Below are positions 5,860 through 35,778 of a DNA stretch of 64,000 nucleotides, piece by piece. Every line of letters begins with the position of its first letter. Positions within the stretch are counted from its first letter, which is position 1. The position numbers and the translations under genes were made by a program. The notes below the pieces were generated by a model. It was not told the origin of the DNA, searched no databases, and was given only the letters and a program-made list of their open reading frames with translations. Origin of the DNA: Pseudoalteromonas sp. UG3-2 (lineage in GTDB: Bacteria; Pseudomonadota; Gammaproteobacteria; Enterobacterales; Alteromonadaceae); the NCBI RefSeq assembly GCF_037120705.1, contig NZ_JAWLJU010000002.1, forward strand, positions 2,232,001 through 2,296,000, given 5' to 3'.

Positions 5860-5884
5860 TATTAGCTCCTTGCTAAAGTAGACT

Positions 5885-6001
5885 AATACCAATCCGCATT
5901 AATACTTACTCAATTTGAGGGAGCAAATTCGACGCTAACTGCGTTGAAAATTTCTTATTTAGAACAACTAAATAGACCACTTAATTAAGCGAATTGGTAT
6001 A
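5885..6001. repeat. 117-bp intergenic inverted-repeat (MITE-like) element
   Basis: The ends are imperfect inverted repeats: ATACCAATCCGCATTAATAC on the left against the complement of TTAATTAAGCGAATTGGTAT on the right. The inside is AT-rich with no open frame of note. It resembles a high-copy intergenic repeat of Pseudoalteromonas genomes as I remember it; copy number cannot be seen from one window. It lies between the Fur-type promoter and the small membrane protein gene, so it would be transcribed as part of the leader. Confidence 0.6.
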
Positions 6002-18568: not shown

Positions 18569-18573
18569 GCGTA
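18569..18573. repeat. Left target-site duplication GCGTA
   Basis: GCGTA immediately precedes the left terminal TGT of the transposon and is repeated directly after the right end at 33905-33909. Five bases is the duplication length made by Tn7-type transposition. Confidence 0.92.
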
Positions 18574-18718
18574 TGTCGCCCTGCAATAAAGTTTCATACT
18601 GAGCAGGGCTATAGGGCCTGTGCTTTGGTTTGGGGATTTGAGGTTGAGAAAATAGAGTTTCATACCAGGTTTAGTGAGTGATCTAAAACCGCTGAGATAC
18701 TAAATAATAAAGTTTCAT
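18574..18718. repeat. Left end with three TnsB-type binding sites
   Basis: CAATAAAGTTTCAT at 18584-18597, AAATAGAGTTTCAT at 18650-18663 and TAATAAAGTTTCAT at 18705-18718 are three well-separated copies in the same orientation, spaced 66 and 55 bp. Separated sites at the left and abutting sites at the right are the pattern of Tn7. Confidence 0.88.
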
Positions 18719-18729
18719 CCTTTAGTAAC

Positions 18730-19245
18730 TTAAGTATTGTTATTTTGATGTAGATGCAAGCTGTATTGATGGGATACTTGAACTGGCTTCAATCTTTTTC
18801 CACTGTGCTTCTGTTCTTCATTTCTCCCAGTCACAAAAGGGACAATGAACTGCCCCATGACAGAGGGTAAAGAAGGATCATTTGTGTGTTTGAGCTGCCC
18901 GATACTTTGGTCCCATTTAAATACACTAAATAACTTCTTGTCTTGATTAAATATTTTGAGTTTTCCAAAACGGACCTTCCAGTAAGCCTCATTATGGTTT
19001 TTGCCTTTACCTATATTTCCATCGTTTTCAAAAGTTATTTCTTTCGCATGGGGTTGCGTTTCCCCAGCAAAGTGTAAATATAAGCTCCTATTTTGTAATA
19101 CGTGCAGGATCTGCCCTGAGCGATGCTTCAATGTGAATAACCAATACAATCCTGCAATAAGAGAGGGTATCAATAAGGTCAGTATAATTTTAACAAGTTC
19201 TGTGATAAAAAACTTATGATCTAATAGTTTTACAACTTCTTCCAT
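18730..19245 (-). CDS. Cargo membrane protein, last gene of protease operon
   Basis: The 171-residue protein has one strong N-terminal membrane helix (residues about 16-37, LVKIILTLLIPSLIAGLYWLF) and a cytosolic beta-rich domain (GQILHVLQNRSLYLHFAG, YWKVRFGKLKIFNQDKK, QFIVPF). It is not a family I recognise. It starts 8 bp after the stop of the preceding gene with TGAGG in the gap, so it belongs to the operon of the AAA ATPase and subtilase. An effector or membrane-attached sensor role in that system is a guess from position. AT-rich compared with the host genes. Confidence 0.6.
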   Translation of the reverse strand: MEEVVKLLDHKFFITELVKIILTLLIPSLIAGLYWLFTLKHRSGQILHVLQNRSLYLHFAGETQPHAKEITFENDGNIGKGKNHNEAYWKVRFGKLKIFNQDKKLFSVFKWDQSIGQLKHTNDPSLPSVMGQFIVPFVTGRNEEQKHSGKRLKPVQVSHQYSLHLHQNNNT

Positions 19246-19253
19246 TAACTACC

Positions 19254-19985
19254 TCATTTGATATAGTTTTTTGATTTCTCGTTCATTTTTGAAGCGAGAT
19301 ATTTCTCACTTAGTCCAAACAGGGCTCCTAATGCGAAGTACTTCGACATGTTATTCGTCAAATCTTCCGTTGTGAGTCCACCAATCTTAAGAACTATTAC
19401 TTCTGAGGTAAAAAGAGACAAACATATGGTAGTTAACAACAGCACAAACACACAGCGCATTACAGGAGAACCAAAATCACTAAGCTGATGGCTTATTTCC
19501 TCAAATGAGATTTCCTTAACCCTAATTGCCAATGAAACCCAAGAACTCAATAACGAGCCATATATGCAAAAAACGTATGGAGCGAAATCAATAGATAAAA
19601 CAAATTGACGAGACAATTCCAATAGTACGCAAAACCCCATAACTGCTATGCCGTATCGGATTAACATTTTATCTCTAATTTTTGACCACGATCTAATGAG
19701 CACATCACTCTTCAATTGCTCAAAACTACTCCGAGCAATTATCAAATCATCTTTACTCCCTGCTAAACCAAGCTTTGCGAGATTGAATAGTTGATCAAAG
19801 TAAAGGCTCCAACTTGAGCTATTTTTCGCATATAGGGCATTAATGGTCAGTAAAAATACTTCCACATCAGACTTGAAGGAGAGAAAATCTTTATGGATCT
19901 TCTCTGTCCCAACAGGAGTAAAAGCGATATCACTAGGCTTATCATCTGATGGATATTTCTGTACATCAAAAAGTAAACTAGCCAT
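19254..19985 (-). CDS. Cargo multi-pass membrane protein of protease operon
   Basis: The 243-residue protein has a soluble N-terminal half of about 105 residues and then three clear hydrophobic segments (about 108-124, 133-154 and 176-199) with a possible fourth near 216-230. No family was recognised. Its ATG overlaps the stop of the 69-residue gene (ATGGCTAG), so the two are translationally coupled. A membrane-acting effector controlled by the operon's protease is an attractive but untested idea. Confidence 0.6.
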   Translation of the reverse strand: MASLLFDVQKYPSDDKPSDIAFTPVGTEKIHKDFLSFKSDVEVFLLTINALYAKNSSSWSLYFDQLFNLAKLGLAGSKDDLIIARSSFEQLKSDVLIRSWSKIRDKMLIRYGIAVMGFCVLLELSRQFVLSIDFAPYVFCIYGSLLSSWVSLAIRVKEISFEEISHQLSDFGSPVMRCVFVLLLTTICLSLFTSEVIVLKIGGLTTEDLTNNMSKYFALGALFGLSEKYLASKMNEKSKNYIK

Positions 19986-20187
19986 CTACAAGCACTCTTT
20001 TTTTGCAAATTCCACAATTAGAAACGCTCTTCCTCGCCAAAGTTATTGACGGGTTGATTGATTTACATTTATTACCTACCACATCTAACAGTGTTATTAT
20101 CTGCTCGATTTCCGAGGCACAAGAACTCTCCGACACACTGAGTTCATGTAGATATTGCTTTATAACAGTTAAATCTCTGTGTGGCAT
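19978..20187 (-). CDS. Small cargo protein with CxxC motif
   Basis: The 69-residue protein is mostly helical and ends in SNCGICKKRVLVDG, with a CxxC pair and two further cysteines (residues about 23 and 41), possibly a metal-binding or redox knuckle. The ATG follows the subtilase stop directly (TAAATG), with AAGGG inside the subtilase end as ribosome site. Coupling on both sides supports expression; the function is unknown. Confidence 0.55.
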   Translation of the reverse strand: MPHRDLTVIKQYLHELSVSESSCASEIEQIITLLDVVGNKCKSINPSITLARKSVSNCGICKKRVLVDG

Positions 20188-22686
20188 TTAGTCACCCTTA
20201 ACTTTCAATCTTTGATCAACTTCTATTGGCATGACTTGCACACCACTAGATATAAGTGATTGATTAACTTCATCAAAAACACGATGTGACTTTTTTTGAT
20301 CGTCTTCTATCGTCAGCATTGCACAGAACTTAACCCCTTCCGATGGAAAGCTACCAGCTTCTCTTTCAAGTGAGTCAACTTTTAACCTCCAGTTACGAGA
20401 TTTACCGACTCCTGATTTTGAAAATTGAACGAACTTTTTAATTGGCCACCATTTAAGCCCATGCTCTATGCGATGTTTCTCACTCGACTCTTTGGATACA
20501 GGGGTTCGAGAAACCCACACAGAATCCCCTTTTTTCCTAAATCTCCATTCATCACTAGGCTTTAAATAGGTATTTTGCTGTAAGGTAGCATTCACATTTA
20601 CTCTACAATATTCTGAACCAAACTTAGTGTTCACAATTGGATCATAGGCTAGAGTCAAAGTTGCTTTACCGCGGCATTTCCCTTCATCAGTGATCAAACT
20701 ACTAGGCCAATCAAAGTAAAATTCGGCGTCTTGCCTAATTTTTAGCTCCCCTTCAAAAGCAATTGTAATTGCATGATCATCAGTCAACAACATCTCTTCA
20801 GAAGGAGATGGCTTGCCAAATCCAACAAAACGCCTCATAACTTCTTTCGTCACACTTTTAACATTTACGGCTTCTGGTAAATTAGAGTGATGGATCAACA
20901 TTGCCAACAAAGTATTTCTAGAGACTGTTCTATTTAAACGGTGCTCAATAGCTGCTAATGTTTTTGCGACCAGCGGAGCAGCAAAACTGGTTCCAGCATC
21001 ATGCAGAATTTGCTCGGTAGAGTTTTCCGAAAACAACCCTGTGCCACTGTTGTCAGAAATAAAGCCCCCGTAGTGGACTACATCAGGCTTTACTCCCGTT
21101 CCAACACCTGGACCTCGTCTAGAATAAATAGTAGGTGATCCTGGCTCTATATCAGGAGTTCCTGGAGGGTTGATTGCACCAACTGTAACAGCACTAATTG
21201 CCTCTGCTGGCTGCTGAATTCTGTCAATATCCGATATAATCGAAGACTGCGTAGGCCACTTGGAGCGATAATCAATGGGATCAAGGTTTCCTGCAGACAC
21301 TACAAAAATAACATCGTGTTTCTTAGAAATTCGATCTACCTGCGAGGCTGCGAAGCTGTAACTATCATCTTTAACCAGCTCTCTTAGATTCACGCTAAAG
21401 TTAAAGATTCTTACTCCTTTTCTTCTTGCAGCTCCCACTTCAGCATCAAGCCAATCAAAAAACTCACCGTACCCATCAAAGTATTGATGAAAACTGTTTC
21501 TCTCGAGATGTATTGGAGCCCAAATATCGTATATTTCACAACCATCGTCTTCGATTCCCTCTAAATGAGAGTTCATTCGCTTCGCTTTTACCAACAAGCT
21601 CGCAACTTGCGACGCATGGTTTGGATCACAGTCTCTCTCGTTAAATCCTATCGAGTCACCAATTACCCAAGTTTGCAAATTGCGACTTCTGATGCCTGAA
21701 TCAATCAAACCCACTTTGGGATAAGACTCAGAATCGGCTTTCTCTATTACCTCTACTTTCTCACTGCTTAAAATATGAGATGATTCTGATCTCGATAGTT
21801 TGGGCGGCAAAGACACCTTTTTAACTAAAGGATTTTTAAGTAAAATTTGTAATAACAGCTCATGTCGCGAGAAGTCTTCATCAAACAAGTCAAAATCGAG
21901 GTGCTTCATCCGTTTTACATTGTCGAAGTCAATATGGGCTTCACAAGCCCAAGGCTTGTAAAGCCTTATATATATAATATTAGAGTTTTCAATTGCTTCA
22001 CTTGCTTTTGATGCCACGACCCCAGCCCCTAATCGCAACAGTGATTGATATAGCTCATATCTACAATCTAAGACTTTTGAGGAACTAATAGAATATTCAG
22101 GTCGAACATTGTCAGAATATTCAAATAGCTCAACGAAATACCCCTTTCCTATCGTATTTCCCTCCGCCAACCACTCTTCTGCGCTTTCTAATGGGAAGCC
22201 TAATCTATCCAAACTTTCGTATACAGATATCTTATCTATTGCACCAACTTCACTTCTTTCAGCGGAAGGCTTATATTTCTTTTTTCCAGTAGATTTGTCT
22301 TCCACTAAATTAGATAAATCTTCTGCCAAATCAATTTTATACTCTAACCACTCTATCGATTTGCTGGATACCTGAAACAACATCGTACCAATCTTAGTTC
22401 CGCCAATGTGAGGCGATTTGTTATGCGGAAAAAGTCGATCAACTGGTCGATGTGATTTAGCAAGTGCTGAAGGGTTTAGTTCAACTTTTAGAACAGCCCC
22501 TCCAACACTACCATTTTCTACAACTCTCTTCGCGTACTCGACTTGCCTCAACAAAGATGCTCTATGCACTTTAAACTCGTCATCCTTACCACCGTAAAAG
22601 TCCTCGTAAGAACCATTTGGATTAATCTCACGAGGACCAATATAGCGCTGAGGATTCAGAACAACTTGGACTGGGTTATGTTTCAT
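20188..22686 (-). CDS. Subtilisin-like (S8) serine protease, IetS-like
   Basis: The 832-residue protein carries an intact S8 catalytic set in the right order: D329 in VGLIDSG, H357 in NHASQVASLL, the oxyanion N467 in VVSAGN and S567 in GTSFAAP. There is no signal peptide, so it works in the cytoplasm. The first 300 residues and the last 230 are specific to this family. It lies 32 bp behind an AAA+ ATPase gene, the arrangement of the ietAS pair, described first as a plasmid stability system of the Ti plasmid and later as an anti-phage system (Gao et al. 2020). The three extra genes that follow are not part of the two-gene system as I know it. The substrate is unknown; a downstream membrane protein is a candidate. 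Confidence 0.85.
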   Translation of the reverse strand: MKHNPVQVVLNPQRYIGPREINPNGSYEDFYGGKDDEFKVHRASLLRQVEYAKRVVENGSVGGAVLKVELNPSALAKSHRPVDRLFPHNKSPHIGGTKIGTMLFQVSSKSIEWLEYKIDLAEDLSNLVEDKSTGKKKYKPSAERSEVGAIDKISVYESLDRLGFPLESAEEWLAEGNTIGKGYFVELFEYSDNVRPEYSISSSKVLDCRYELYQSLLRLGAGVVASKASEAIENSNIIYIRLYKPWACEAHIDFDNVKRMKHLDFDLFDEDFSRHELLLQILLKNPLVKKVSLPPKLSRSESSHILSSEKVEVIEKADSESYPKVGLIDSGIRSRNLQTWVIGDSIGFNERDCDPNHASQVASLLVKAKRMNSHLEGIEDDGCEIYDIWAPIHLERNSFHQYFDGYGEFFDWLDAEVGAARRKGVRIFNFSVNLRELVKDDSYSFAASQVDRISKKHDVIFVVSAGNLDPIDYRSKWPTQSSIISDIDRIQQPAEAISAVTVGAINPPGTPDIEPGSPTIYSRRGPGVGTGVKPDVVHYGGFISDNSGTGLFSENSTEQILHDAGTSFAAPLVAKTLAAIEHRLNRTVSRNTLLAMLIHHSNLPEAVNVKSVTKEVMRRFVGFGKPSPSEEMLLTDDHAITIAFEGELKIRQDAEFYFDWPSSLITDEGKCRGKATLTLAYDPIVNTKFGSEYCRVNVNATLQQNTYLKPSDEWRFRKKGDSVWVSRTPVSKESSEKHRIEHGLKWWPIKKFVQFSKSGVGKSRNWRLKVDSLEREAGSFPSEGVKFCAMLTIEDDQKKSHRVFDEVNQSLISSGVQVMPIEVDQRLKVKGD

Positions 22687-22718
22687 ATATATCCTTTATA
22701 AGCCTTTAAAAACCTTAC

Positions 22719-23906
22719 CTAAGTCAGGCTTTTAACAAAATCATTTATACTTTTAGATACCCTAGAAAGAGATGTTTCAAATACTCGAGAAATTTCCCTT
22801 TGGGTGAAACCAAACTCTTTATTCAATTTATACATAACTTGAGAAGTATCACCTTCTCGAATTAAAAGGATCAACTCTGAATGTTTACTAGAGTTGATCA
22901 CAAACAGCGACTTAATCCTATCGATGAATGACATCTTCTGATTTGATAAAACCATATGTCGCTTATAGTTTTCCGACAACAGCTCTAAATCAGAGCCGCA
23001 AAACTCTTCTGTAACTAAACTAAGAAACTTAGACTGCTCTTCCGGCAAATTAAGTGGCAACATATACTTTTCAATGATCTTGCACCTCGCTTCTAAATTA
23101 GGCTTAGGTACATACATTCTGATATCAAATCGTCTCCAAACAGCAGGATCTAACAAAACTTCGTGATTAGTAATAGCAATAGTCAGTCCTAGTTCTGCTC
23201 TTTCATCTATACACTGCAATAACGTATTCACTACTCTCTTTATCTCACCAACTTCATGAACGTCATCTCGAGCTTTTGCAACAGCATCGAATTCATCCAA
23301 GAGCAGAATACATTGATGCTGAGATACAAAGTTAAATAAGTTATTTATATTTCTGGCACTGGTCCCAAGTAACGAGGAAACCAATCCATCTAGCTTTGCA
23401 ACAACCACTGGTAAACCCATTTTTTTCGCAATGTATAGTGCTAGTTGTGTTTTCCCAGTTCCTGGTAGACCGTATAGTAAACAACTAAATGAAGGTTTAA
23501 CCCCCACACTCTCCAATTTGTCTATGCTATTCCACTCATCTACCAGCTGATTAACAGCGCTATCAATTTCTGTTGGGAAAATAGGTATATCAATATTATT
23601 AAGAGTATCTTGAAAAATAACTCTCGCTAACGGTGAGCCACTATCTTTATCAACTGGCAATTTAGAGTTTGGAGTTAATATCTGACCCTTTATCAAAGCC
23701 GCTTTTGACAGTTTCAACTGGGATGGTTCTATAATCGCTTTTCGATTTGCTTTCTCAATTAACCTTTTAAGAGCAATAGCTTCATCTTCATACCCAGAGT
23801 CAGCTAAAGCTTTTTCCAGCCTTTCCATTTGAGTTACTGCATCTGACGATGGACCATCTTTAATTACTTGGCGACACAAGGCAGAGACAATATGAAAGTT
23901 TTCCAC
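22719..23906 (-). CDS. AAA+ ATPase, IetA-like, with C-terminal helix-turn-helix
   Basis: The 395-residue protein has a helical N-terminal domain (1-90), a Walker A GLPGTGKT (146-153), Walker B LLLDEFD (D204, E205), sensor Asn in ITNHE (N247) and an arginine finger pair in VWRRFD (R258, R259). Its last 40 residues look like a helix-turn-helix (FGFTQREISRVFETSLSRVSKSI), which could bind DNA and control the operon. The GTG start has TAGGAA upstream. It leads a five-gene operon and should act with the S8 protease as regulator or substrate-loading ATPase, as proposed for IetA/IetS. The promoter region just upstream holds a 21-bp-periodic repeat array. Confidence 0.82.
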   Translation of the reverse strand: MENFHIVSALCRQVIKDGPSSDAVTQMERLEKALADSGYEDEAIALKRLIEKANRKAIIEPSQLKLSKAALIKGQILTPNSKLPVDKDSGSPLARVIFQDTLNNIDIPIFPTEIDSAVNQLVDEWNSIDKLESVGVKPSFSCLLYGLPGTGKTQLALYIAKKMGLPVVVAKLDGLVSSLLGTSARNINNLFNFVSQHQCILLLDEFDAVAKARDDVHEVGEIKRVVNTLLQCIDERAELGLTIAITNHEVLLDPAVWRRFDIRMYVPKPNLEARCKIIEKYMLPLNLPEEQSKFLSLVTEEFCGSDLELLSENYKRHMVLSNQKMSFIDRIKSLFVINSSKHSELILLIREGDTSQVMYKLNKEFGFTQREISRVFETSLSRVSKSINDFVKSLT

Positions 23907-23962
23907 GTTTTCCTACTTAATACTGTATAAATGATCACTAAGGTTCATTATAGCCAACAAAA

Positions 23963-24055
23963 GAAACAAAACAATGCTTTCCAGAAACAAAAAGTCTATA
24001 TACAGAACAAAACAACCATAAACACGAACAAAACCGCCAAAATGTAGAACATTAC
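23963..24055. repeat. 21-bp-periodic direct repeats upstream of the AAA ATPase
   Basis: GAAACAAAAC (23963), GAAACAAAAA (23984), GAACAAAAC (24005) and GAACAAAAC (24026) begin at exact 21-bp steps, and a weaker GAACATTAC continues the register at 24047. The array fills the 153-bp gap between tnsE and the ATPase gene, where the operon promoter must lie. Two-helical-turn spacing puts all copies on one face of the DNA. Confidence 0.8.
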
Positions 24056-24059
24056 TTAT

Positions 24060-25673
24060 TTAAAGCTTATTCGTGAACCTCTCACCCCATGCTTGAATCT
24101 CTTCCTCACTCAATCTACCTTCATTCTTCGAAGGTTGATGCGAAACACTTTTGTGATTGCCTTCTCCAACCAGTGCATCAAAGTATTTCTTTGGCCAGCA
24201 GAATTGGTTACTGAACAACCTTCTTTCTATCTCCGGTATAAAGTCTCGTAACTTGCCTTTTGGCGCTAATGCTCGCGCTGAAATGACTTTGGTGGCAATG
24301 GAAGCTTTGCCATCTGAGGTATCCACCTCTAATAAGAAATACCCTTCGCTTTGATGTTCAATACGCACAATGGTCATGCACCTTGGAGACCCGTCATCCA
24401 TAAAGTGTCTTTTGCTGCGGCCAACTTCTGGTAGCTTACGAACGATGGGCTTACTTTGCTTAACACCGTACTCTTGCTCTAATATCTCCAACATTCTGAA
24501 GAAACCATCGAATTTACTGAGATGCGAATCGGCATTATCGGTTTGGTCGTCTAAGCCATCGATAGCAGCTCGGGGTGTATCGCCTCGCGAATTTGGGTCG
24601 TCGGTGCTTACGTCTGATGGTAGGGTGTCGGGTTTATCTTCATCTTCTTTACCGCCAGAGGTTTTTCTAGTCTTTGCATCGACTTTACGAGTACGTGGCA
24701 CTCTGTTGTATATACGCTGTGTTGCATCACAGAATATCAATGCCGACTCGTTATCTTCGCTGCCGTCGCTGTTTTCGTCGATTTCTCGCTGTGTAGGCAG
24801 TTGTGGGTAGGTACCGCCTTTTCCTTTACCCGAACCTGGTTTGTTTTCGGTGAAACCTGGATGTGAAAAGCCAATATCTGATATATCAGGGAAGAACAAA
24901 CCATCCAATAATTCTATTCGGTTGATAAACCAAGTGCTTTCATCACGTGATTTCCAGCCTCTTGCCGCTACTTTTACACCCTTGAGCTGAGGTGGGTCGA
25001 ATCGAAACGTCCAACGCTCTACGTTAGGTGCCCTAACTCGCTCTTGCGAAAAATACTGATAGATACTGTTAAACGAGTTTTTAATGTCACTGTTTAACAA
25101 TAACCAAGCAATTTGATGTCTAAATCCTTCATTATCAAACAGTACTTTCGGGCATAGTGTTGTTGGTAAAGCGTTGATCACGAGCTCTACAGGAAACTCT
25201 CTATCATCGTTGTTTGGGTGGTGGTCAACGTCAAACTCTAAGTCGAGTGCACTGTTAATGAGTGCGGCGTTTGCCAAATAGTTGTTTGTAAAAAATAAGG
25301 CTCTGGCTAGCTCCAACTGCGGTAAATAAATGGTTTTGCCTGCACTTTCAAACACAAAGCATTTTTGCGATTGCTCTTCGCTCAGCTTATAGGTCACTAA
25401 GCCGCTGTCGCCCACCGTGGCGGTTTGCCAAAATGCACGGTCGGGTAAGGTAAATTCAATCGGGAAGCCTGGAGGGATGGCATCAACAGTTTGGTTTAGT
25501 ACGACTTGTCGGCTTAAATAGGGGAGCTGGCTAAATTTAAGAGCCTTGCGAGTGGATTGCTTAAAACGAACACCAATATCCCACGTTTTGCGGTCATTGT
25601 ATTTAAACAGATTACCTATCGCCTGTATTCTGGCGTTGTCTGGTAGCGTTTTAAATCTATCAACTTGGTTCAT
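24060..25673 (-). CDS. tnsE: TnsE, targeting protein for replicating/conjugal DNA
   Basis: The 537-residue protein matches the TnsE family in size and in blocks of the C-terminal region (the FFRMLEILEQEYGV helix, RCMTIVRIEHQSEGYFLLEVDTSDG, and FCWPKKYF). TnsE directs TnsABC to lagging-strand DNA and conjugal plasmids through 3' recessed ends and the sliding clamp, favouring horizontal spread. The middle (residues about 285-385) is a low-complexity acidic linker. The start overlaps the tnsD end by 14 bp. It is the last of the tns genes. Confidence 0.88.
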   Translation of the reverse strand: MNQVDRFKTLPDNARIQAIGNLFKYNDRKTWDIGVRFKQSTRKALKFSQLPYLSRQVVLNQTVDAIPPGFPIEFTLPDRAFWQTATVGDSGLVTYKLSEEQSQKCFVFESAGKTIYLPQLELARALFFTNNYLANAALINSALDLEFDVDHHPNNDDREFPVELVINALPTTLCPKVLFDNEGFRHQIAWLLLNSDIKNSFNSIYQYFSQERVRAPNVERWTFRFDPPQLKGVKVAARGWKSRDESTWFINRIELLDGLFFPDISDIGFSHPGFTENKPGSGKGKGGTYPQLPTQREIDENSDGSEDNESALIFCDATQRIYNRVPRTRKVDAKTRKTSGGKEDEDKPDTLPSDVSTDDPNSRGDTPRAAIDGLDDQTDNADSHLSKFDGFFRMLEILEQEYGVKQSKPIVRKLPEVGRSKRHFMDDGSPRCMTIVRIEHQSEGYFLLEVDTSDGKASIATKVISARALAPKGKLRDFIPEIERRLFSNQFCWPKKYFDALVGEGNHKSVSHQPSKNEGRLSEEEIQAWGERFTNKL

Positions 25674-27177
25674 ACTTTACTGCAAATCCTAGCAACTGCG
25701 ACGCGAGTGGTCGGGTCCTTTTTTCGTTTAGCCCTGCCATACGTTCAATTCGCCAATCTTTGAGTATTTGATGTTTTGCAACACAACGAATACATGCCAC
25801 AGCGATACGACGGCATTGGTATTCCTCTATAGTTTCACAATATTTATTAAAAAACAATTTACATAAGGGCAACTTTTCTAGGTATTTGATCTGAGACAAA
25901 GGAATGTTTGCATGGGTTGCCAGCCAAGTTACTGTTAGACGGCTTAAATCTAGCTGAGTTTCTACTTTATTTATCAATGAAATAAGCTGCTTTACGTACT
26001 GCTTGTCTCGTTTTGACCAATCAACTCTGCCTTTTTTTGCAACTGTGGGTTTTGTAGAGCTTTGATTAAATTGCATTAGCCATTGATTATCATGCCGATA
26101 TAACCAAGCGTAAAGGTATGCAAAACAGTTTTGCCTTGCGCCTTTAACGCCAAATTTAGCCGCAGCACGTTGCCACTTCGCACGACGAGTTTGGTCTACC
26201 AACGCAGGCTCGGCATATACAGGAATATCATCATATGGGGTGTGCGGTAGTGATGATACAGTGCTTAGTATGTTCGCTATATTCAACTGCTGCTCATAAC
26301 ACGCTTGCCACACCAATAGGTGCTGAAGGTAGCTAAATGATTTTCTGTGTTTTCTAAACAAACACTTCAACCAATTAGAGTCTTCTGCCTTGTTTATATT
26401 GAGCCCGAAGCTTTCGAGGGCATGGCCGCCCCAATACCCTAAAACCAATTGTGCGATCAGCTCGTGTTCAACCTGTTTACCCCTAACAAACCCTAACTGA
26501 TAAGCCAAATGATGATAAAAATAACCCCATTGTAATGGATGTATATATTGCTCTGGTATGTTCAGTAACTGCTGCACATATTCTGTTAGAAGTGTGATTT
26601 TGTGGTGTGTTTGATTTGGATTTGAATGCAAAAGCACATGAGGACTTAGCGCTATAAATTGGTGCCTATGTGCCTCGCTGATCATCACAGGGCTGTTGAT
26701 CAGCTGCATGCTATGTTCCGCGCATACAGATAGACCAGGAAGTTGCCAGCGCCGAGTCCAAAAGGGTTCTCCATATTGCTCTATTTGCGCTGTGACGCAT
26801 AAATGGCAGTAACGCAGGTAGTTTGGGCTTTTAACTTTAGAGGCTGCTTTACCTAACTGTACTTCTGCTGAGTGTCTGCAATCAGTCAGTAGCTCATGTT
26901 TAGCTTGAGCAGCAATGTTAGGATGCACAAAAGGTGAGTATAACGGAAAAAGTGTGTGCCTCTGTAACAGCTTATATGGCGTTAAATCAGTATTACCTTG
27001 ATAGTGTGCAGAGATCTGAGATAAATGCCCTTGAAAAGCTACTGAGGCGATTATTTGGCGGTTTTGGAATACCTCATCAAGCAATTGCTTGGGTGACGTG
27101 ATGCCTGCATGTACGCCGTACCTTGCAATGACGCTATACAGCAGCTCATCAGGGTAAGGTATGGGTAAACAGGCCAT
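25660..27177 (-). CDS. tnsD: TnsD (TniQ family), attTn7 recognition protein
   Basis: The 505-residue protein begins with a TniQ domain (PYPDELLYSVIARYGVHAG) and has the zinc motif CxxC...CxxH at C124, C127, C152 and H155. TnsD binds the 3' end of glmS and brings TnsC there. The insertion beside glmS in this window fits a functional TnsD. The C-terminal helical half, residues about 340-500, is expected to contain the DNA-reading region. The start follows the tnsC stop within a few bases. Confidence 0.92.
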   Translation of the reverse strand: MACLPIPYPDELLYSVIARYGVHAGITSPKQLLDEVFQNRQIIASVAFQGHLSQISAHYQGNTDLTPYKLLQRHTLFPLYSPFVHPNIAAQAKHELLTDCRHSAEVQLGKAASKVKSPNYLRYCHLCVTAQIEQYGEPFWTRRWQLPGLSVCAEHSMQLINSPVMISEAHRHQFIALSPHVLLHSNPNQTHHKITLLTEYVQQLLNIPEQYIHPLQWGYFYHHLAYQLGFVRGKQVEHELIAQLVLGYWGGHALESFGLNINKAEDSNWLKCLFRKHRKSFSYLQHLLVWQACYEQQLNIANILSTVSSLPHTPYDDIPVYAEPALVDQTRRAKWQRAAAKFGVKGARQNCFAYLYAWLYRHDNQWLMQFNQSSTKPTVAKKGRVDWSKRDKQYVKQLISLINKVETQLDLSRLTVTWLATHANIPLSQIKYLEKLPLCKLFFNKYCETIEEYQCRRIAVACIRCVAKHQILKDWRIERMAGLNEKRTRPLASQLLGFAVKYEPS

Positions 27178-27178
27178 G

Positions 27179-28849
27179 CTACACGCTTTGTTTAAGCCAA
27201 GCGGTCATATCAAAAACCTTTCCTTGTTGTTTGTAGTATTGGTATAGCTCACCCGGTTGCTTTTTGTGTTGAGAATAGCCAAAACGTAAATCGTCACTAG
27301 GCAATGTATGCCAGTCCTTGAGCTTGATGATTGCGGGTTTCTCTTTGACATCCTCCACTTCATCTGGTGCTTGCTCATACCATTCAAGAACGATTGGAAT
27401 AAGCCCTCTTACTTGTAGGTTTGGGTGATCTTTAATGGCTTTTTGCACTAACGGTACCAATAACTCAGATTCACACCCCATACCTAGCAAAAGGTTATAA
27501 AGCCTCATGGCCTCTGAGTCGCTAGCAAAAGGGAGTGTGTCTGATTTAACAGCTGCAACTTCAGAGATCTGCTGGCTGAGCTCCAACAACCGTTTATCTA
27601 TCTCTTTGTATTGTAAGTCTGAATACTTGGCGATGCTTTTTGCTTTACCAGACTTGAGCGCTTCAATCATGGGATGGATCGGCTGTAATTCAGATTCATA
27701 TACCTTCAAAAATAGCTTTGAAGATAACCGTTCAACACCTGTAATAATGGCGCGAAGTTGTGCAAGTACAAATAGCTTAACCACAATATCGAGCACCCCT
27801 TGTGACAGCTCAAACCAAGTATTGCGGACTTCTTCTGTGAGCGGTTCATCGCGGTGAATAAGCCACTGATACTGCCAAAGCTTGTCAGTTAACAATCGCC
27901 ACTCTGTGGGTTTTGGTTTACCCGTTGCTGTATCGATTCTATTTTTGTGCTGTGGCAGGGGCGCCCACACCATAGAGCCAATGCCAGTACTGCGCCTTGC
28001 TGATTGTAACTCTAGCTCAAATATCGGCCTTGCTTTGGGGGTGCCAACTAAAATCACCGGCACGCCAATAATATTCACCAAAGCCACAAAAAACTCGAGC
28101 ATGCGTTCTTGCCCTTCTTTTTGTTTGCGGCCTAAACGCTGTATTTCATCAATTACTAATACACCAATGGCATATTGGTTGGCGACTTGTCCCATAAATG
28201 ACAGTAGTACCTCAGTACTATGACGCTTGCGCCCATACCTTTCAGTGAGGTCCGTGTGCAGATGTTTATCGACCTCCTGAAAGAAATTTAAGCAGAGGCT
28301 TTTTAACGACCCATCCACTGGGCACTCTATACGTAAATAAGTGAGCTGGTATGTATTATATTTTTCGTGATAAATCGTTTGTGGGTAGGTGGCCAATATT
28401 CGCAGCACACTGGAGCTTTTACCACATCCAGAGCAACCAATAAGTGATAAGCAACGTGCCGTAGAGGGCGCTTCGGCAAAACGAAAGCTACTTATGTCTC
28501 CCGTCATCAAGCGTTCGTAGCCGTTTTGTAAGTGTTGCTGTAGCTGACCAGTTGCAATGTTTCTGGCAACATAGCCGCCGCGGATCATCAACGCTATTTT
28601 TTCCTCAAGCGCCACATGCATCGACAAAGGTTGAAAGAAGTCATCAAGCAAACCACATAACTCATGAGCACGCTCTCTGGCGTCTAAATAACCTGCCGCG
28701 GGGTTGTATTTTACTTTGCCCTCCAGCTTAGTTTTCAGCTCTTCTACTTTGCTCACTCTAGGCAGTGCTTCAATAAACGGATTGCCTTTGTAACGCTCAA
28801 TCTCAGACTCCTTATACACTGCACGGTAGATATTTGAGGGTAAACTCAT
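27179..28849 (-). CDS. tnsC: TnsC, AAA+ regulator of transposition
   Basis: The 556-residue protein has Walker A GCSGCGKSS (about 138-146) and Walker B GVLVIDEIQRLG (D234, E235), with VILVGTPKA as sensor region. TnsC is the ATP-dependent switch linking target selectors TnsD and TnsE to the TnsAB transposase and enforcing target immunity. The length matches canonical TnsC (about 555 residues). ATGA overlap with tnsB. Confidence 0.93.
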   Translation of the reverse strand: MSLPSNIYRAVYKESEIERYKGNPFIEALPRVSKVEELKTKLEGKVKYNPAAGYLDARERAHELCGLLDDFFQPLSMHVALEEKIALMIRGGYVARNIATGQLQQHLQNGYERLMTGDISSFRFAEAPSTARCLSLIGCSGCGKSSSVLRILATYPQTIYHEKYNTYQLTYLRIECPVDGSLKSLCLNFFQEVDKHLHTDLTERYGRKRHSTEVLLSFMGQVANQYAIGVLVIDEIQRLGRKQKEGQERMLEFFVALVNIIGVPVILVGTPKARPIFELELQSARRSTGIGSMVWAPLPQHKNRIDTATGKPKPTEWRLLTDKLWQYQWLIHRDEPLTEEVRNTWFELSQGVLDIVVKLFVLAQLRAIITGVERLSSKLFLKVYESELQPIHPMIEALKSGKAKSIAKYSDLQYKEIDKRLLELSQQISEVAAVKSDTLPFASDSEAMRLYNLLLGMGCESELLVPLVQKAIKDHPNLQVRGLIPIVLEWYEQAPDEVEDVKEKPAIIKLKDWHTLPSDDLRFGYSQHKKQPGELYQYYKQQGKVFDMTAWLKQSV

Positions 28850-30930
28850 ACGTCGTCATCCTCCTTAAACAACTGATCAGAAAAGTCAGGAAAATCCAGA
28901 TCGTCATCAGGCTCAGAGAGATAATGCACTTCCGCTGATTTACTAGTGTCGATGTCCACAGGCTTGTAGGCGCGCTCTTTACGCTCTTTGCTTTTTTCTT
29001 CTGCTCGATTGCCACGAATATTGTGAACCCGCTCGGCATCCGACAAACCAATATGTTTTGGCGCGGCCTTTTCTGCCTGTTTCACTACCTCTATCACTTG
29101 TCGTTCCAAGGCTCGCTTTTGCTCGTCTGCTACCAACTTTGCTTCCGCCTGAGTCTGTTTTAACTCATCATTTTGCTGCCACACATCCCAAAAGCTTGCG
29201 CCTGAAAACTGTCTTGAACGTGTGGCTAACTGGCACACAAAATAGTCATTGCTGTTAGGGCCGTGATAAATGTAGATGTAGTCTGCCGTTGCTAAGTCAT
29301 AGGCAACTTCCACACTTTTAGGGCGCTTCACTTCCTTACCCCGATGCATCCAGCCTAACTTTAAAAGCTCTGCGCTGGTGTAATACACGCCAAATACACA
29401 AACCCCCGAATCAGATATCGTTGCCCAAGTTCTTAGCATCAATGCCACGCGAAGATGCTCAATTGCTGGCTTTTTTAACCGACCAGTACGATTTTGCAAG
29501 CCCCAATTCCATATCGCCAGTGGGTTATTTGGTAGGTCTGTTGGCATATCAGCGGCTTTATCGTAGTCTTCAATCACGTGATATTGATTGTGATAAAGTA
29601 CTGAAGCTAAAATGATTCGAGTAAACTCTTGGATCGTAAGCTTAGCATCTAAGCGGTAATCTCTATCGCCTTGTTTTTTAATTTTGGTACCAGTGACCAC
29701 ACCAGGTGCAAACGGTTTGAATGCTTGTTGAAAGGTGAGAAACGCTCGTTCGACAACCCCTTTGGCCTCGCTTCTAAATGGTGGCGTATTTTCAACGCGC
29801 ACACCAAAGCCCTTTTCAAGACATTCAATTTGATGGCCCATCAGCTCGCCTCTATCGGCTAACAGTGCTGAAGGCAAGCCAATACACGGCCATTGCTGTG
29901 GGGTTATATCAAAACCAAATTGTCGGCAGTAGTCTGATTTATCCGTCGTGGCCATATGTATTGCCTGAATGGCAGCGGCATATGAAGGGTTTTCAAAACC
30001 AACATAAAACCCAGCCACCATACGGCTAAATACGTCAATAACCATGTAAATCACTGGGCGACCGACGATGTTGCTTCTTTGAGAGTCAGACACTAAATAA
30101 ATATCTGCGATTGTGGCATCAATTTCATAACGCATGCCAGGCCCTAAAACATCTGCTGCGGCGGTACCTGTAAGCGGTCGAATATCTTTCTTTCGTTTTA
30201 TTTCACCCGCCTGCGCTTCTATTTTGTCTACTTGGCGATATTCACGTTTGTAGAAATGCTCCATTTGCCTGAGTGTTGGTAATTCTTCTTCGGGTAGATC
30301 TGGAAAGTACTGCTCATAAATATCTTTGAGCCTGTTGTGCGCATATCTAAATGATTTGCCTTTGTCGGTTAACAGGTGTCGTTCAATCGCTATGCGGAAA
30401 AGCTTCTCTGCGAAATCATCAATTAAAGCGCCAGTGCCTGGCATGTATTTGCGCGGTCGCCCTAACTTTGTTGTAGCACGACGCTTTTGGCCCTTGGCAC
30501 CTGAGTTTTTATAATCGGGTAATAATGCGTTGGGGATCTGGCCACGTTGCCAGTATCTTCGAGCAAAACGATAAATAGACTGTTTGGTTTTTCCCGTCTC
30601 AACCATTATTTGATTAACCACTTTGCCACGCGCTTTCGGTTCATAGCAGTTCTCAAGCTCTACCAATGGCTTAATTGCGGCATAGTTTTCATCACGTTTT
30701 AACTGAGCGGTAGAGCCAGCTTCTGGTATTACGGTGGCAATATCGCTATATGGGTCGGCTGCACGTTTGAGCACTTCATCTTGAAAGCCCTGTTCTAACT
30801 CAGCTATTTCAACAAGCTCAGGGAAGGCTTTGTCATCGTGTACTTTTATCCAGAGCACGTAATAATCAAATACTATTAAAATGCGATACAAGGTTTGTTC
30901 GTATCGCAATACTTCATTGATTTGAAACAC
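28846..30930 (-). CDS. tnsB: TnsB, DDE transposase
   Basis: The frame is open from 31011, but the GTG at 30930 has a perfect AGGAGG seven bases upstream inside the end of tnsA, and gives 694 residues, close to canonical TnsB (702). With this start the catalytic triad is D271 (YEIDAT), D359 (LLADRGEL) and E394 (VVERAF); the spacing of 88 and 35 residues equals that of Tn7 TnsB D273, D361 and E396. TnsB binds the end sites, joins 3' ends to the target and acts together with TnsA. C-terminal charged region about 610-694 is the usual TnsC contact. Confidence 0.94.
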   Translation of the reverse strand: MFQINEVLRYEQTLYRILIVFDYYVLWIKVHDDKAFPELVEIAELEQGFQDEVLKRAADPYSDIATVIPEAGSTAQLKRDENYAAIKPLVELENCYEPKARGKVVNQIMVETGKTKQSIYRFARRYWQRGQIPNALLPDYKNSGAKGQKRRATTKLGRPRKYMPGTGALIDDFAEKLFRIAIERHLLTDKGKSFRYAHNRLKDIYEQYFPDLPEEELPTLRQMEHFYKREYRQVDKIEAQAGEIKRKKDIRPLTGTAAADVLGPGMRYEIDATIADIYLVSDSQRSNIVGRPVIYMVIDVFSRMVAGFYVGFENPSYAAAIQAIHMATTDKSDYCRQFGFDITPQQWPCIGLPSALLADRGELMGHQIECLEKGFGVRVENTPPFRSEAKGVVERAFLTFQQAFKPFAPGVVTGTKIKKQGDRDYRLDAKLTIQEFTRIILASVLYHNQYHVIEDYDKAADMPTDLPNNPLAIWNWGLQNRTGRLKKPAIEHLRVALMLRTWATISDSGVCVFGVYYTSAELLKLGWMHRGKEVKRPKSVEVAYDLATADYIYIYHGPNSNDYFVCQLATRSRQFSGASFWDVWQQNDELKQTQAEAKLVADEQKRALERQVIEVVKQAEKAAPKHIGLSDAERVHNIRGNRAEEKSKERKERAYKPVDIDTSKSAEVHYLSEPDDDLDFPDFSDQLFKEDDDV

Positions 30931-31741
30931 GAAACACCTCCTGAATTTGCTCAACGTTACCCAATTTAAGATGGCCCACTTGCAGCTTTTGTACTGGCGT
31001 AAAAATATCAAAGGTAAAGTAACGGTCAGCTAACAAAGCTCTTATCTCAAACAACGACTCTCCTAAGTCTAGTCCATAGGCGGTATCTATCTCTTTGCAG
31101 GCGTTTATAAGGCTTTTAGCTGGGTGTTTTGTAAAGTAATCAGCATAGAATCTAGCTTGCTCAATAGCGGAGTCTGAAGCTTCTTCATGCTCACCTTGCA
31201 ATGGATAAATCCATTCAACATTCGCTTTAACGACTTTTGGGATCTCTTGCTCAGTGACTATTTGCCAAGGGATCTGCTTTTCATGCCAAAAGCGTTTCTC
31301 GAGTTCAAGTATTTCTATCTTGCGGTGTTCTTCAAAAGTGCTGACATATTTGGCTTGTAACGCAAAATAAGGCAAATCTCGTGATGTTGTTTCAACTAGA
31401 AAGTCGCTCGAAAGGTATTGGTCAACGCCTCGAACATTTGGGTGCTTGATGCCAGCAGATTCAGCTAGCTCTAATGTTATCTCGCGCTCTAGCGGAAACT
31501 GCTCTTTGACTTGCAGCACATCCTGCCGCCACTCGAGCAAATAGAACATGGATAGTTCGAGATCGGATAATAAATGGTGGCTTCGCTTAGATTTATAACC
31601 AAAGACTCGATGTACACGGCCATCAGATGGCGCATCATAAACCGTTAACCAAGGCTTGTAATCCTGATACTCGCCAGTACCGCGCCCCTCTTTAATCCAC
31701 TTACGATATTGCGCCTCAGTGTGGCCAATCTTCCTAGACAT
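30914..31741 (-). CDS. tnsA: TnsA, endonuclease subunit for cut-and-paste
   Basis: The 275-residue protein carries the restriction-enzyme-like site E62, D113, Q129-x-K131 and E148, one residue offset from Tn7 TnsA E63, D114, Q130, K132 and E149. TnsA cleaves the 5' ends so that the element moves by cut-and-paste and does not form cointegrates. All residues are present, so the system should be active. First gene of the tns operon; the promoter must lie in the 31742-32058 gap. Confidence 0.93.
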   Translation of the reverse strand: MSRKIGHTEAQYRKWIKEGRGTGEYQDYKPWLTVYDAPSDGRVHRVFGYKSKRSHHLLSDLELSMFYLLEWRQDVLQVKEQFPLEREITLELAESAGIKHPNVRGVDQYLSSDFLVETTSRDLPYFALQAKYVSTFEEHRKIEILELEKRFWHEKQIPWQIVTEQEIPKVVKANVEWIYPLQGEHEEASDSAIEQARFYADYFTKHPAKSLINACKEIDTAYGLDLGESLFEIRALLADRYFTFDIFTPVQKLQVGHLKLGNVEQIQEVFRVSNQ

Positions 31742-32058
31742 AATATACCGCTATAACTGATTGAAATTTCAGCATAGCTCTTTTTAAGAACGATGTAACT
31801 ATTATAGGTCTACTTTGTCCTGTAGGTTGGCATTTCTGGTGATAAGCTAGCTATTCGTGACATTTTGTGTTGTAAGACTGAGAATTACAGTCTAATGTAT
31901 GTAAAGCGAGGTCATATTGCTGAAATTTAAACCACACTATTGATTTCGCTGGTCAAGAGCTGTTAAAGTACCGCTTAATTTTAAAGCAATTCCTCGCTGA
32001 AAATGAAGAGCTGTAGTCGAGGCCTGACACAATTCATCGTTCGGAGATAATCATATAT
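31742..32058. other. Non-coding gap upstream of tnsA
   Basis: This 317-bp gap between the leftward tnsA and the rightward 80-residue gene must hold divergent promoters. I see no convincing -35/-10 pair or operator. A 25-codon stretch ending at 32015 (DFAGQELLKYRLILKQFLAENEEL) reads like the tail of a lost helical protein, but it has no start codon. Confidence 0.4.
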
Positions 32059-32301
32059 ATGTACTTCTGGTACTTAGTCATAGCTTTAGTTGCCTCTACA
32101 ATTATACTCGTTCAAATTACAAGCATAGTTGGCGACCATAAGCTGAGAAAGAAAATGAAGTCCACTGAGAAAAACTTAGAGAAGGCGGGGATTCATCCGT
32201 TTGGTTCTACTCTATCTCATGGCATGTATGTTAATAAAAAGACGAGGAAAATAAAGGCAGACCAAAAACACTCTACTATCTGGTATAAAAGACTATCCTG
32301 A
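32059..32301 (+). CDS. Small cargo membrane protein
   Basis: The 80-residue protein has one N-terminal helix (residues about 3-24) and a basic cytosolic tail with GSTLSHGMYVNKKTRK. The family is not recognised. A perfect terminator follows at 32333. It is rightward, toward the transposon end, and belongs to the AT-rich cargo. Confidence 0.55.
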   Translation: MYFWYLVIALVASTIILVQITSIVGDHKLRKKMKSTEKNLEKAGIHPFGSTLSHGMYVNKKTRKIKADQKHSTIWYKRLS

Positions 32302-32332
32302 TAGCCTGTCAAATTTTCACACCGTTTAAAAG

Positions 32333-32352
32333 AGCTCACCTTAAGGTGAGCT
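32333..32352 (+). terminator. Intrinsic terminator after the 80-residue gene
   Basis: AGCTCACC / GGTGAGCT with a TTAA loop, followed by TTTTATTTT. Confidence 0.75.
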
Positions 32353-32374
32353 TTTATTTTGAAGGATTAGTAGT

Positions 32375-33775
32375 TTGAGCAATAAATACTCTCACATCGC
32401 TTGGGTTCCATGTATTAATGGTCATTTGGATTTTGGACTAATGCTTCCAGGGATTATTGGAGGTTTTACCAATGAGGAATTCGAGGATAAATGTACATCA
32501 AACATTAATTACGGATATATCAAGCAACTTGACCATCACGCCAGAAGAATAATCATACAATCAAAGGTTGATTGGAGAGACACCGATCATGACGACTATG
32601 ATGGTCAATTTAGAGTTATTTTAGTCGCTCAATCCGATGAAAGCGCAAACCTAGACGACAGAAACCTTAAGGGAAAGATAGTAATTTACCCTACCTCCGA
32701 AGAAGCAGAAAACCGTGAAGATAGGGAGAAACTGCCATGGTTTGAGCTAATACACACAGCAAAAAGTAAGCTAGAAATATATAAATCAAGCAGAGACCAA
32801 TGGGAAAATTCTCGCAAAGAGTTGAATGAGAAATATGACGAACTAGATCGTTTTCTTACTCATAACAACATGAAAAACCACATAAATAATCATTTTCACG
32901 CAGTTCATTTTGAAGTTAGCCCTCAGGGCTTTGCCAAACTTGGGATAGATTCTGATGAAACATCTATAGATGAAGAAGAAAAGTATGTTGTTTTACGTCA
33001 AGCATTTTATTACTTGAAATATTCTATCCACTTTCATAAACATCACCATCAAAAAGAAGACTCACTCACAACTATAATTCCGCTCGAGCAGTGTGGTGAA
33101 TGTGATGCGTGTAAAGGCAAAGAGAAATGTGTAAAAAGTAATAATATAGAAGGCTTAAAAATGCTAGGTCAGCTAAAGAGAGAGCTGACTCATCTAAAGC
33201 GAACTTATTCAAGCGGCGGACAGAAAGCCTATGGTGAAGAGCTGGGTATTTTATCATACATGGGCTCTTTGTGTGCATCCTTAAAGCATGCCAATTACCT
33301 GTGTAATGATACATATGAAAGGGAGTGCAAATATATTGACTCACTTACAAGTTCCTTCAACGTTCAAGCTAACAAAAGAGATAAATCTGAGAAGTGTATC
33401 GAGGACATAAACTCAACATATAGAACTTATGTTGCATGGGCTTTTTCTTTCATAAGCATACTATGGCTGATTGTCATAAAGGGATACATAAAATATTCGG
33501 AAAACAACCAAATAGACTTTACATTTGATATCTACAGAAGCTCAGCCCTAATTATAATTGCGATCTTATGCTCAATATCAGCTTACAAGTACTTGGTGAG
33601 AAGAAGGATAAATAAGACAATTGATGAGAAAGGTTTCAAATCTTGGGTAGAAAAATATTACATCATCAGTGACCAACAATATAATAAAGATCTTATTCAT
33701 AGAATTCTTAAAGTCATATTTACTGCAGTAGTATCAATTGCTTTATGCTCTGCAGTTTATTGGATATTTAAATAA
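32375..33775 (+). CDS. Unknown cargo protein with cysteine cluster and C-terminal membrane helices
   Basis: The 466-residue protein starts at TTG with GAAGGA eight bases upstream. Residues 1-340 are soluble, with a coiled segment at about 125-160, a His-rich stretch near 219-225 (HFHKHHH) and a cysteine cluster C240-x2-C243-x2-C246-x5-C252 resembling a metal knuckle. Three hydrophobic segments follow at about 352-370, 390-407 and 445-464. No family was recognised. Its place between tnsA and the right end, strong AT bias and membrane-tail layout fit a mobile accessory gene; a defence role is possible but unsupported by motif. Confidence 0.6.
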   Translation: MSNKYSHIAWVPCINGHLDFGLMLPGIIGGFTNEEFEDKCTSNINYGYIKQLDHHARRIIIQSKVDWRDTDHDDYDGQFRVILVAQSDESANLDDRNLKGKIVIYPTSEEAENREDREKLPWFELIHTAKSKLEIYKSSRDQWENSRKELNEKYDELDRFLTHNNMKNHINNHFHAVHFEVSPQGFAKLGIDSDETSIDEEEKYVVLRQAFYYLKYSIHFHKHHHQKEDSLTTIIPLEQCGECDACKGKEKCVKSNNIEGLKMLGQLKRELTHLKRTYSSGGQKAYGEELGILSYMGSLCASLKHANYLCNDTYERECKYIDSLTSSFNVQANKRDKSEKCIEDINSTYRTYVAWAFSFISILWLIVIKGYIKYSENNQIDFTFDIYRSSALIIIAILCSISAYKYLVRRRINKTIDEKGFKSWVEKYYIISDQQYNKDLIHRILKVIFTAVVSIALCSAVYWIFK

Positions 33776-33840
33776 TCATAAAAAACCGAAAAATATTTGC
33801 GTTAAGTTACCCTCATTGCAACTTCTGAGAGACGCTAAGT

Positions 33841-33904
33841 ATGAAACTTTATTGTTTTGGATGATACTTTATTGTATAGGGTGAAACTTTATTGTTCACC
33901 CACA
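33841..33904. repeat. Right end with three phased TnsB-type sites
   Basis: ATGAAACTTTATTG (33841), ATGATACTTTATTG (33861) and GTGAAACTTTATTG (33881) repeat at exact 20-bp steps, inverted relative to the left end, and are followed by TTCACCCACA, the terminal ten bases. Closely packed sites mark the right end of Tn7-type elements. Confidence 0.92.
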
Positions 33905-33909
33905 GCGTA
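33905..33909. repeat. Right target-site duplication GCGTA
   Basis: Second copy of GCGTA, 21-25 bp behind the glmS stop codon, identical to 18569-18573. Confidence 0.92.
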
Positions 33910-33929: not shown

Positions 33930-35750
33930 TTACTCCACAGTCACTGACTTGGCTAGGTTCCTAGGCTGATCCACGTCAGTGCCTTTAATCACGGCCACAT
34001 AGTAGGAAAGTAGCTGCAGCGGAATGGTATATACCACAGGGGCAATGATATCTTCTACGTGGTTAACGTTCATCACTCGCATTGTCTCGTCCGACTCAAA
34101 GTGCGAGTCTTTGTCTGCGAATACGTAGATGATGCCGCCACGAGCTCGCACTTCTTCAACGTTTGATTTTAGCTTTTCAATCAGGTCGTTATTTGGAGCG
34201 ACCACGATGATTGGCATGTCAGCATCGATTAGCGCTAAAGGCCCGTGCTTTAACTCACCAGCCGCGTAAGCTTCGGCGTGAATGTATGAAATTTCTTTGA
34301 GTTTTAACGCACCTTCCATTGCGATTGGGTATTGCGAGCCGCGACCTAAAAACAGTGAATGGTGTTTATCGGCAAACTCTTCAGCCAGTACTTCGATGCC
34401 CTCAGCCATGCTTAAGGCTTCTTCTAACTTGGTTGGCAGCGTTTTAATGGCGTTAACAATAGCACTTTGATCACGACCTTTCTCCTGTGCAATCGACGCT
34501 GTTAACATCAATAAGCCCACAAGTTGCGTAGTAAATGCCTTGGTTGATGCCACGCCAATCTCGGCACCGGCTTTGGTCATAAAGGCCAAATCGGATTCAC
34601 GTACAAGGGATGACCCAGGCACATTACAAATGGTCATTGATGCCATGTAGCCTTGCTCTTTCGCTAGGCGCAAAGCGGCAAGTGTATCGGCCGTTTCGCC
34701 CGACTGCGAAATAGTCACTAACAGGCTGTTTTCGTGGACAAAAGACTCGCGATAACGGAACTCTGAGGCGATTTCAACATTGCAACTCACGCCAGCCATT
34801 TGCTCTAGCCAATAGCGCGCCACCATACCGGAGTGATACGAGGTACCACAGGCAATGATTTGCACATGCTTCACTTGTTGGAAAATATCGTTCGCCTTGT
34901 CGCCAAATGCATCGATTGTGACGCGATCATTATCTAAACGACCTTCTAAGGTATTGCGCACGGCCATTGGCTGCTCGTAAATCTCTTTCAGCATATAGTG
35001 GCGATATTCGCCTTTACCCGAGGCATCTTGGCTAATATTGGACTCCACCACTTCACGCTCTACCGGGTTGCCGTCGGCATCAAAAATTTCGACGCTTTCA
35101 CGGGTGATCCGCGCTACATCGCCTTCCTCTAGGAAGATAAAGCTACGAGTCACTGGCAACAGCGCCAGCTGATCGGAAGCAATAAAGTTTTCTCCCAGAC
35201 CAAGGCCTATGACCAATGGGCTTCCTGAACGTGCGACAATGATTTCATCTTGCTTGGCTTTATCGAACAATACCGTGCCATAAGCGCCTTCAAGCTGCTT
35301 TACTGCAGCTTGCACGGCTGCCAGTAAACTATCGTGTTGTTGTCTAAGTTGGTGAATTAAGTGCACCATGACTTCGGTGTCGGTGTCAGAAAGAAATTCG
35401 TAACCATCTTCTTTCAGTGCCGAGCGCAAGCCTGCATGGTTTTCGATAATGCCATTGTGCACTAAGGCAATTTCGCTGTTTGATAGGTGTGGATGAGCGT
35501 TGGCTTCGGTTACCCCACCATGAGTGGCCCAGCGGGTGTGAGCAATGCCTGTGGTGCCGGTTACGGCCGCATTTTCAAGCGCAGACTCTAAATTCACCAC
35601 TTTACCAACCGCTTTCACGCTGCTTAGTGTGCCTTTATCGCACAGTGCAACTCCTGCAGAGTCATAGCCACGGTACTCAAGGCGTTTTAGCCCCTCAATC
35701 AGAATTTTGTTTACTGGACGCTCAGCAACGGCGCCAACGATTCCACACAT
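33930..35750 (-). CDS. glmS: Glutamine-fructose-6-phosphate aminotransferase
   Basis: The 606-residue protein makes glucosamine 6-phosphate from fructose 6-phosphate and glutamine, the first step toward UDP-GlcNAc for peptidoglycan and lipopolysaccharide. After the start, MCGIVGAV supplies Cys2 of the glutaminase domain; HTRWATHG and the two SIS domains ([27 protein letters not shown]) follow, and the end is [13 protein letters not shown]. The ATG at 35750 is required for Cys2; the longer frame to 35816 is not used. The 3' end is the TnsD recognition site, and the transposon sits just beyond. Confidence 0.97.
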
Positions 35751-35778
35751 AATCTCTCCATTATTTGCACGTTGTGTG

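Follow-up and report, generated by a model that had tools for sequence, protein, structure and literature searches.

Introduction

The closest described relative of the locus analysed here is IetAS (ietA/ietS, known as sgiA/sgiT on SGI1 and as 'IteAS' in NCBIfam), in which an ATPase gene is followed by the gene of an S8 protease and which is carried by mobile elements. For the homologous pair of SGI1, a study in E. coli describes the protease as a toxin and the ATPase as its antitoxin, two genes being sufficient: the protease is reported to be toxic when expressed alone and to be neutralised by the ATPase (PMC5006074). The ietAS pair is also listed as a phage-defence system, for which a 2023 paper still gives the mechanism as undescribed (PMC9958689). 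Other bacterial systems associate a protease with a separate effector. Bacterial gasdermins encoded beside caspase-like proteases are described as protease-activated effectors (PMC9612521), and a pro-nuclease is reported to have been acquired repeatedly together with its protease in bacterial defence (PMC12799240).

In Pseudoalteromonas sp. UG3-2, within the 64,000-nt stretch of DNA that was analysed as a whole (hereafter the window), an IetAS pair lies in an operon-like run with the genes of a membrane module, which allows a direct test of whether IetS can be connected with a membrane effector. A preliminary description of this DNA had read the five genes of the run as one extended IetAS system. 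The data presented below rather indicate that two or three independent units, IetAS and a separate CxxC/membrane module, are probably carried in one transcript direction as cargo of a Tn7-like transposon at attTn7.

A five-gene run carried by a Tn7-like transposon

The ORF listing of the window contains five tightly packed minus-strand ORFs at 18730-23906, transcribed in the order IetA, IetS, CxxC protein, 243-aa protein, 171-aa protein:

22719-23906, minus strand: IetA, AAA+ ATPase, 395 aa, GTG start
20188-22686, minus strand: IetS, S8 (subtilase) protease, 832 aa
19978-20187, minus strand: CxxC protein, 69 aa, the small partner of the 243-aa protein, with a near-C-terminal CxxC (end CGICKKRVLVDG)
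19254-19985, minus strand: 243-aa membrane protein, with an N-terminal strand pair bearing a DIxF motif
18730-19245, minus strand: 171-aa protein, one N-terminal hydrophobic helix followed by predicted beta strands

A gap of 32 nt separates IetA from IetS, so that these two genes are close, not coupled. The IetS stop codon abuts the start of the CxxC gene (TAAATG), the CxxC gene shares 8 nt with the 243-aa gene, and 8 nt lie between the 243-aa and 171-aa genes; the tail of the locus, from IetS on, is therefore packed in an operon-like manner. All five ORFs are where the preliminary description had placed them, on the minus strand, and the operon-like layout that it proposed holds behind IetS, the two first genes being merely close. 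The G+C content of the cargo genes is 36.9% for IetA, 40.5% for IetS, 38.6% for the CxxC gene, 36.7% for the 243-aa gene and 36.4% for the 171-aa gene, and that of the tns genes (42.6-44.7%) lies above this 36.4-40.5% range. This shared low G+C fits a joint acquisition of the cargo genes.

The run belongs to the following element:

18574-33904, no strand: Tn7-like transposon, 15331 bp, recognised from its ends, repeats, target duplication and Tns domains
18569-18573 and 33905-33909, no strand: GCGTA 5-bp target duplications, the matching flanks of the transposon
24060-31741, minus strand: TnsE, TnsD, TnsC, TnsB and TnsA in order of increasing coordinate, from domain matches; TnsB is of the Mu type
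32375-33775, plus strand: other cargo gene, at the TnsA end, 466 aa, with the cysteine-rich stretch CGECDACKGKEKC
33930-35816: glmS, read as such from its SIS and GATase domains

The insertion lies 25 bp past the glmS stop codon, which is the known attTn7 position. The transposon has TGT...ACA ends (TGTCGCCCTGC... and ...GTTCACCCACA) with repeated AATAAAGTTTCAT-like sites. Three AATARAGTTTCAT sites are found at one end (0 mismatches) and three at the other (0, 1 and 1 mismatches), and the whole window holds 14 such sites with two mismatches at most, for 5.4 expected. With TnsABCDE, terminal repeats resembling binding sites and a 5-bp duplication, the element is complete, and the Tn7-like carrier earlier assigned to the operon is confirmed. 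No other sizeable gene accompanies the 466-aa gene at the TnsA end; the 466-aa product has hydrophobic segments towards the C-terminus and no match in Pfam or PADLOC. An 80-aa ORF with a hydrophobic start (32059-32302, plus strand) is also present between tnsA and this gene.

The first two genes form an IetAS pair

IetA matches the PADLOC model PDLC02195 with 504.6 bits over residues 1-388, i.e., nearly its full length, as well as Pfam AAA (8e-28), and the alignment reads a Walker A motif GLPGTGKT and a Walker B motif ILLLDEFD. IetS matches PDLC02199 with 930.6 bits over residues 1-830, again nearly full length, and Pfam Peptidase_S8 (1.9e-21). Judged by these sequence models, the matches to both families greatly exceed chance. 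Residues D329, H357, N467 and S567 of IetS are invariant in 14 of 14 aligned sequences, namely that of the window and 13 picked among 120 relatives listed. The locus thus has the composition by which PADLOC defines IetAS, an IetA-type AAA+ ATPase with, directly downstream, an S8 protease bearing Asp/His/Ser and the oxyanion Asn. Both the ietAS layout and the catalytic residues had been proposed from a first inspection of the DNA, and both stand.

In a search covering the proteins of the window, the NCBIfam IteA and IteS equivalogs (NF042959 and NF042956) gave 266.5 bits against a curated cut-off of 510 and 321.3 bits against one of 900, respectively; because these scores are so far below, the pair is a divergent IetAS subfamily, outside the NCBIfam equivalog. 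Within the order, the IetS model matches 53 of 394 genomes at E 0.001, 15 of them at 1e-20 or better (including the genome of the window), the rest being weaker and mostly partial S8 matches. Partial IetS-like protease matches, at 24-30% identity, are also found in five phage records (H41-H45).

We take IetAS to be self-sufficient here, since the SGI1 pair is reported to act from two genes (PMC5006074) and ietAS is listed as a defence system (PMC9958689). As a standard IetAS pair, this first unit would consist of a protease, IetS, that the AAA+ ATPase IetA keeps restrained. When the cell is infected or the element is lost, the balance between the two would be upset and IetS freed, which would then digest essential proteins and stop cell growth. 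The expected outcome would be phage defence together with maintenance of the element.

The CxxC protein and its membrane partner

The 243-aa protein has three clear hydrophobic segments in its hydropathy profile, and its structural model (pLDDT 73.2) displays three soluble helices and four membrane-length helices, in agreement with its initial description as a multi-pass membrane protein. The model is helical and gave no clear fold match, so that an effector activity is proposed here from topology. DIxF is kept in nine of nine aligned membrane proteins of the family, corresponding to seven distinct lineages when the sequences of the window, P0001 and P0002 are counted as one. In five of six loci (the window and four of the five distant ones described below), the small ORF directly upstream of the membrane gene carries a near-terminal CxxC, the ORF at this position in genome G973 being without it. 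As a background, a mechanical scan found a CxxC-ending upstream ORF at six of 253 genes, four of these six being members of the 243-aa family; the scan passed over the gene of G1097, displaced by a longer antisense ORF, and this case was read directly. The CxxC protein could bind zinc or sense the thiol state, and may meet the membrane protein at the conserved N-terminal DIxF region of the latter.

Neither protein of the pair in the window has a match in Pfam, PADLOC, NCBIfam or PHROG at E 0.001, and the search for gasdermins in Pfam, with E up to 10, gave no match for the 243-, 171- or 69-aa proteins. By the libraries searched, and by a literature coverage of open-licence papers not queried by a name for the pair, the CxxC/DIxF-membrane pair is a candidate new family. 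Some of its loci have mobile or defence-type genes nearby, and these libraries contain no annotation for it.

Three relatives of the 243-aa protein, at 97, 86 and 40% identity, came from a word-based search across 5.8 billion proteins, and more distant ones were reached afterwards by profile searches. Among 395 genomes of the family, two carry it, that of the window and G312. A scan of genome contigs revealed a relative in Sphingomonas sp. Leaf230, an earlier contig scan having given none. Four matches were obtained among 398 genomes of the phylum (G973, G912, the genome of the window and one false hit) and three among 249 genomes of the family of G973 (G1097, G973 and a decayed fragment in G1313); 297 genomes of the order of G912 and 149 of the class of G973 gave already-known members only. 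The distant matches span 186 to 237 residues or positions, with E-values of 1e-11 for G312, 3e-30 for G912, 5e-33 for G973, 5e-42 for G1097 and, relative to candidate stretches only, 3e-17 for Leaf230. As far as these sequence searches go, the gene pair is rare and thinly spread across Proteobacteria.

Gene neighbourhoods of the pair are diverse. In Leaf230, the pair is directly followed by an Eco57I-type N6 methylase gene, which is overlapped by a 275-aa ORF of no recognised family (L046:10847-13292); this ORF is perhaps the restriction partner of the methylase, and a resolvase, an EAL/GGDEF gene and a Fic gene lie nearby. In G912, an IS1595 transposase gene adjoins the pair. The neighbours are a DEAD helicase, a RIO kinase and a glyoxalase in G312, and a DNA methylase, RNase HII, an oxidoreductase and a kinase in G973; these two sets are of housekeeping type. 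A YgjP-like metallopeptidase gene is found about 3.8 kb from the pair in G312, on the other strand and not adjacent. The pair could be a toxin-antitoxin-like unit independent of IetAS, with the membrane protein as toxin and the CxxC protein as its cytosolic restraint. Its two-gene organisation, with a small upstream partner near or overlapping the membrane gene, and the mobile genes present at some loci are consistent with this variant of the separate-unit reading; the toxicity is putative and the window's proteins match none of the families in the four libraries at E 0.001, so that we regard this as a tentative possibility.

A different association is seen in G1097, where four same-strand genes encode a caspase-like protease, a protein with a signal-peptide-like N-terminus, the CxxC protein and the membrane protein. 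The first two occupy L057:5094-7071, the start of the protease gene at L057:5094 being chosen within a longer ORF (4755-5942) and the signal-peptide-like start of the second protein being judged by eye. The caspase-like protein matches Pfam C14 (2.4e-16) and the PADLOC caspase model (2.3e-8), and contains SGHG and DSCHSG motifs. On the opposite strand, a muramidase gene follows some 2.5 kb past the pair. A protease gene thus lies directly upstream of the pair at two of six loci, the subtilase in the window and the caspase-like protease in G1097, from two unrelated families; among those neighbouring ORFs of the other four loci that were searched against Pfam, none adjoining the pair was recognised as a protease. 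Two of six loci being too few, no coupling of the pair to proteases is claimed. That the CxxC/DIxF module has been recruited repeatedly as the membrane arm of unrelated defence proteases, the IetAS subtilase and the G1097 caspase-like protein, while also working alone, is a doubtful proposition, and one that we hold somewhat below the toxin-antitoxin variant.

Are the small genes part of IetAS?

The preliminary description had suggested checking whether homologues of the 243- and 171-residue proteins always lie next to those of IetA and IetS. At the five distant 243-aa loci (G312, Leaf230, G973, G912 and G1097), tblastn at E 0.001 revealed no relative of either IetA or IetS in the 15-21 kb of DNA searched per locus (30 kb in two pieces for G312). 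The sole match of the IetS model in G312, a weak one of S8 type, lies 1.7 Mb from the 243-aa locus of that genome. Conversely, the family profile detected no 243-aa member in the flanks examined of 25 other independent IetA+IetS loci, 13 from genomes of the order (about 1.5 kb of flank) and 12 from plasmids (about 6 kb), the latter drawn from 107 plasmid records with an IetS match. The downstream neighbours of the plasmid pairs vary and include, among others, genes for a Shedu nuclease and an abortive infection protein as well as toxin-antitoxin genes and transposases. At the plasmid loci L032, L034, L036 and L042, two-gene IetAS lies near other defence-type genes, annotated as an abortive infection family protein, Shedu nucleases and a caspase family protein. 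Given these counts of 0/5 and 0/25, the CxxC and 243-aa genes occur apart from the ATPase/protease pair in the DNA examined, an outcome that the preliminary description had itself named as refuting its proposal. What remains of the extended system first proposed is the IetAS pair itself, the operon-like layout and the Tn7-like carrier; its part that made the three small genes a module of IetAS is not supported. Beyond these 25 loci, the closest relatives of IetS (43-57% identity) may share a lineage-specific five-gene version.

In such an extended IetAS, activated IetS would cleave one member of the pair, either the 243-aa protein or the CxxC protein, after which the former would permeabilise the inner membrane. 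The packing of the five genes, the protease upstream of the pair at two of six loci, that of G1097 included, and the precedents reported for gasdermins (PMC9612521) and for the pro-nuclease (PMC12799240) speak for this scheme, and a proteolytic link of the pair by analogy with either is possible. The extended system is nonetheless unlikely, given the four loci with no protease recognised beside the pair, the 25 IetAS loci with no 243-aa member in the flanks examined, and the reported toxicity of the SGI1 protease alone, which the ATPase neutralises in E. coli (PMC5006074).

The 171-aa gene is a separate matter. The same word-based search found three close relatives of its product, at 85-96% identity and two of them partial, and no relative was found in the other 107 genomes searched of the genus. 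One further match in the genus was rejected as antisense to a histidine-biosynthesis gene. The structural model (pLDDT 52.9) is too poor for a fold search. A contig of 13709 bases is given both for an IetS with 97% identity and for a 171-aa relative, which suggests that these genes remain linked in close relatives. The 171-aa gene would be a passenger within the cargo. That all the small genes are unrelated passengers, clustered passively and with no role tied to IetAS or defence, would agree with the close relatives only of the 171-aa gene and with the housekeeping-type surroundings of the pair in G312 and G973, but is the least probable reading, since abutting or overlapping start and stop codons and the fact that the CxxC and 243-aa genes recur together argue for a selected function.

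Separate units thus remain the preferred explanation. Its grounds are the identities of the proteins, the conserved residues, the gene order, the carrier, and the occurrence of the CxxC/membrane pair without IetAS nearby; against it stand the operon-like packing of the five genes, the shared low G+C of the cargo, the suggested linkage of IetS and the 171-aa gene among close relatives, the flanks of only about 1.5 kb at 13 of the 25 IetAS loci and the CxxC-less ORF of G973. Considering topology and gene order, the CxxC/243-aa pair is most likely a membrane effector or stress module of its own, probably with the CxxC protein as a small cytosolic partner, appended to IetAS in this element.

Comparison with known systems

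Compared with bacterial gasdermins and their adjacent proteases, which would offer a working model if the 243-aa protein is protease-triggered, the window encodes a helical multi-pass protein with no Pfam gasdermin match, and four of the six loci have no recognised protease beside the pair. The nuclease-protease pairs described in PMC12799240 involve a nuclease instead of a membrane protein, and the comparison is drawn from two loci; the S8 and caspase-like partners suggest, as for those pairs, that an effector module has moved between defence systems of unrelated kinds. The element as a whole shares with Tn7 and Tn7-like transposons TnsABCDE, the 5-bp duplication, the terminal repeats and the insertion 25 bp past glmS, and differs from Tn7 in its own cargo, IetAS and the small genes at the TnsE end and the 466-aa gene at the TnsA end. 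From IetAS, finally, the locus differs by the small genes behind the pair, the 243-aa family being absent at the 25 other IetAS loci examined, and it shares with that system the order of ATPase and S8 protease genes, the nearly full-length PADLOC matches, the catalytic residues and carriage by a mobile element.
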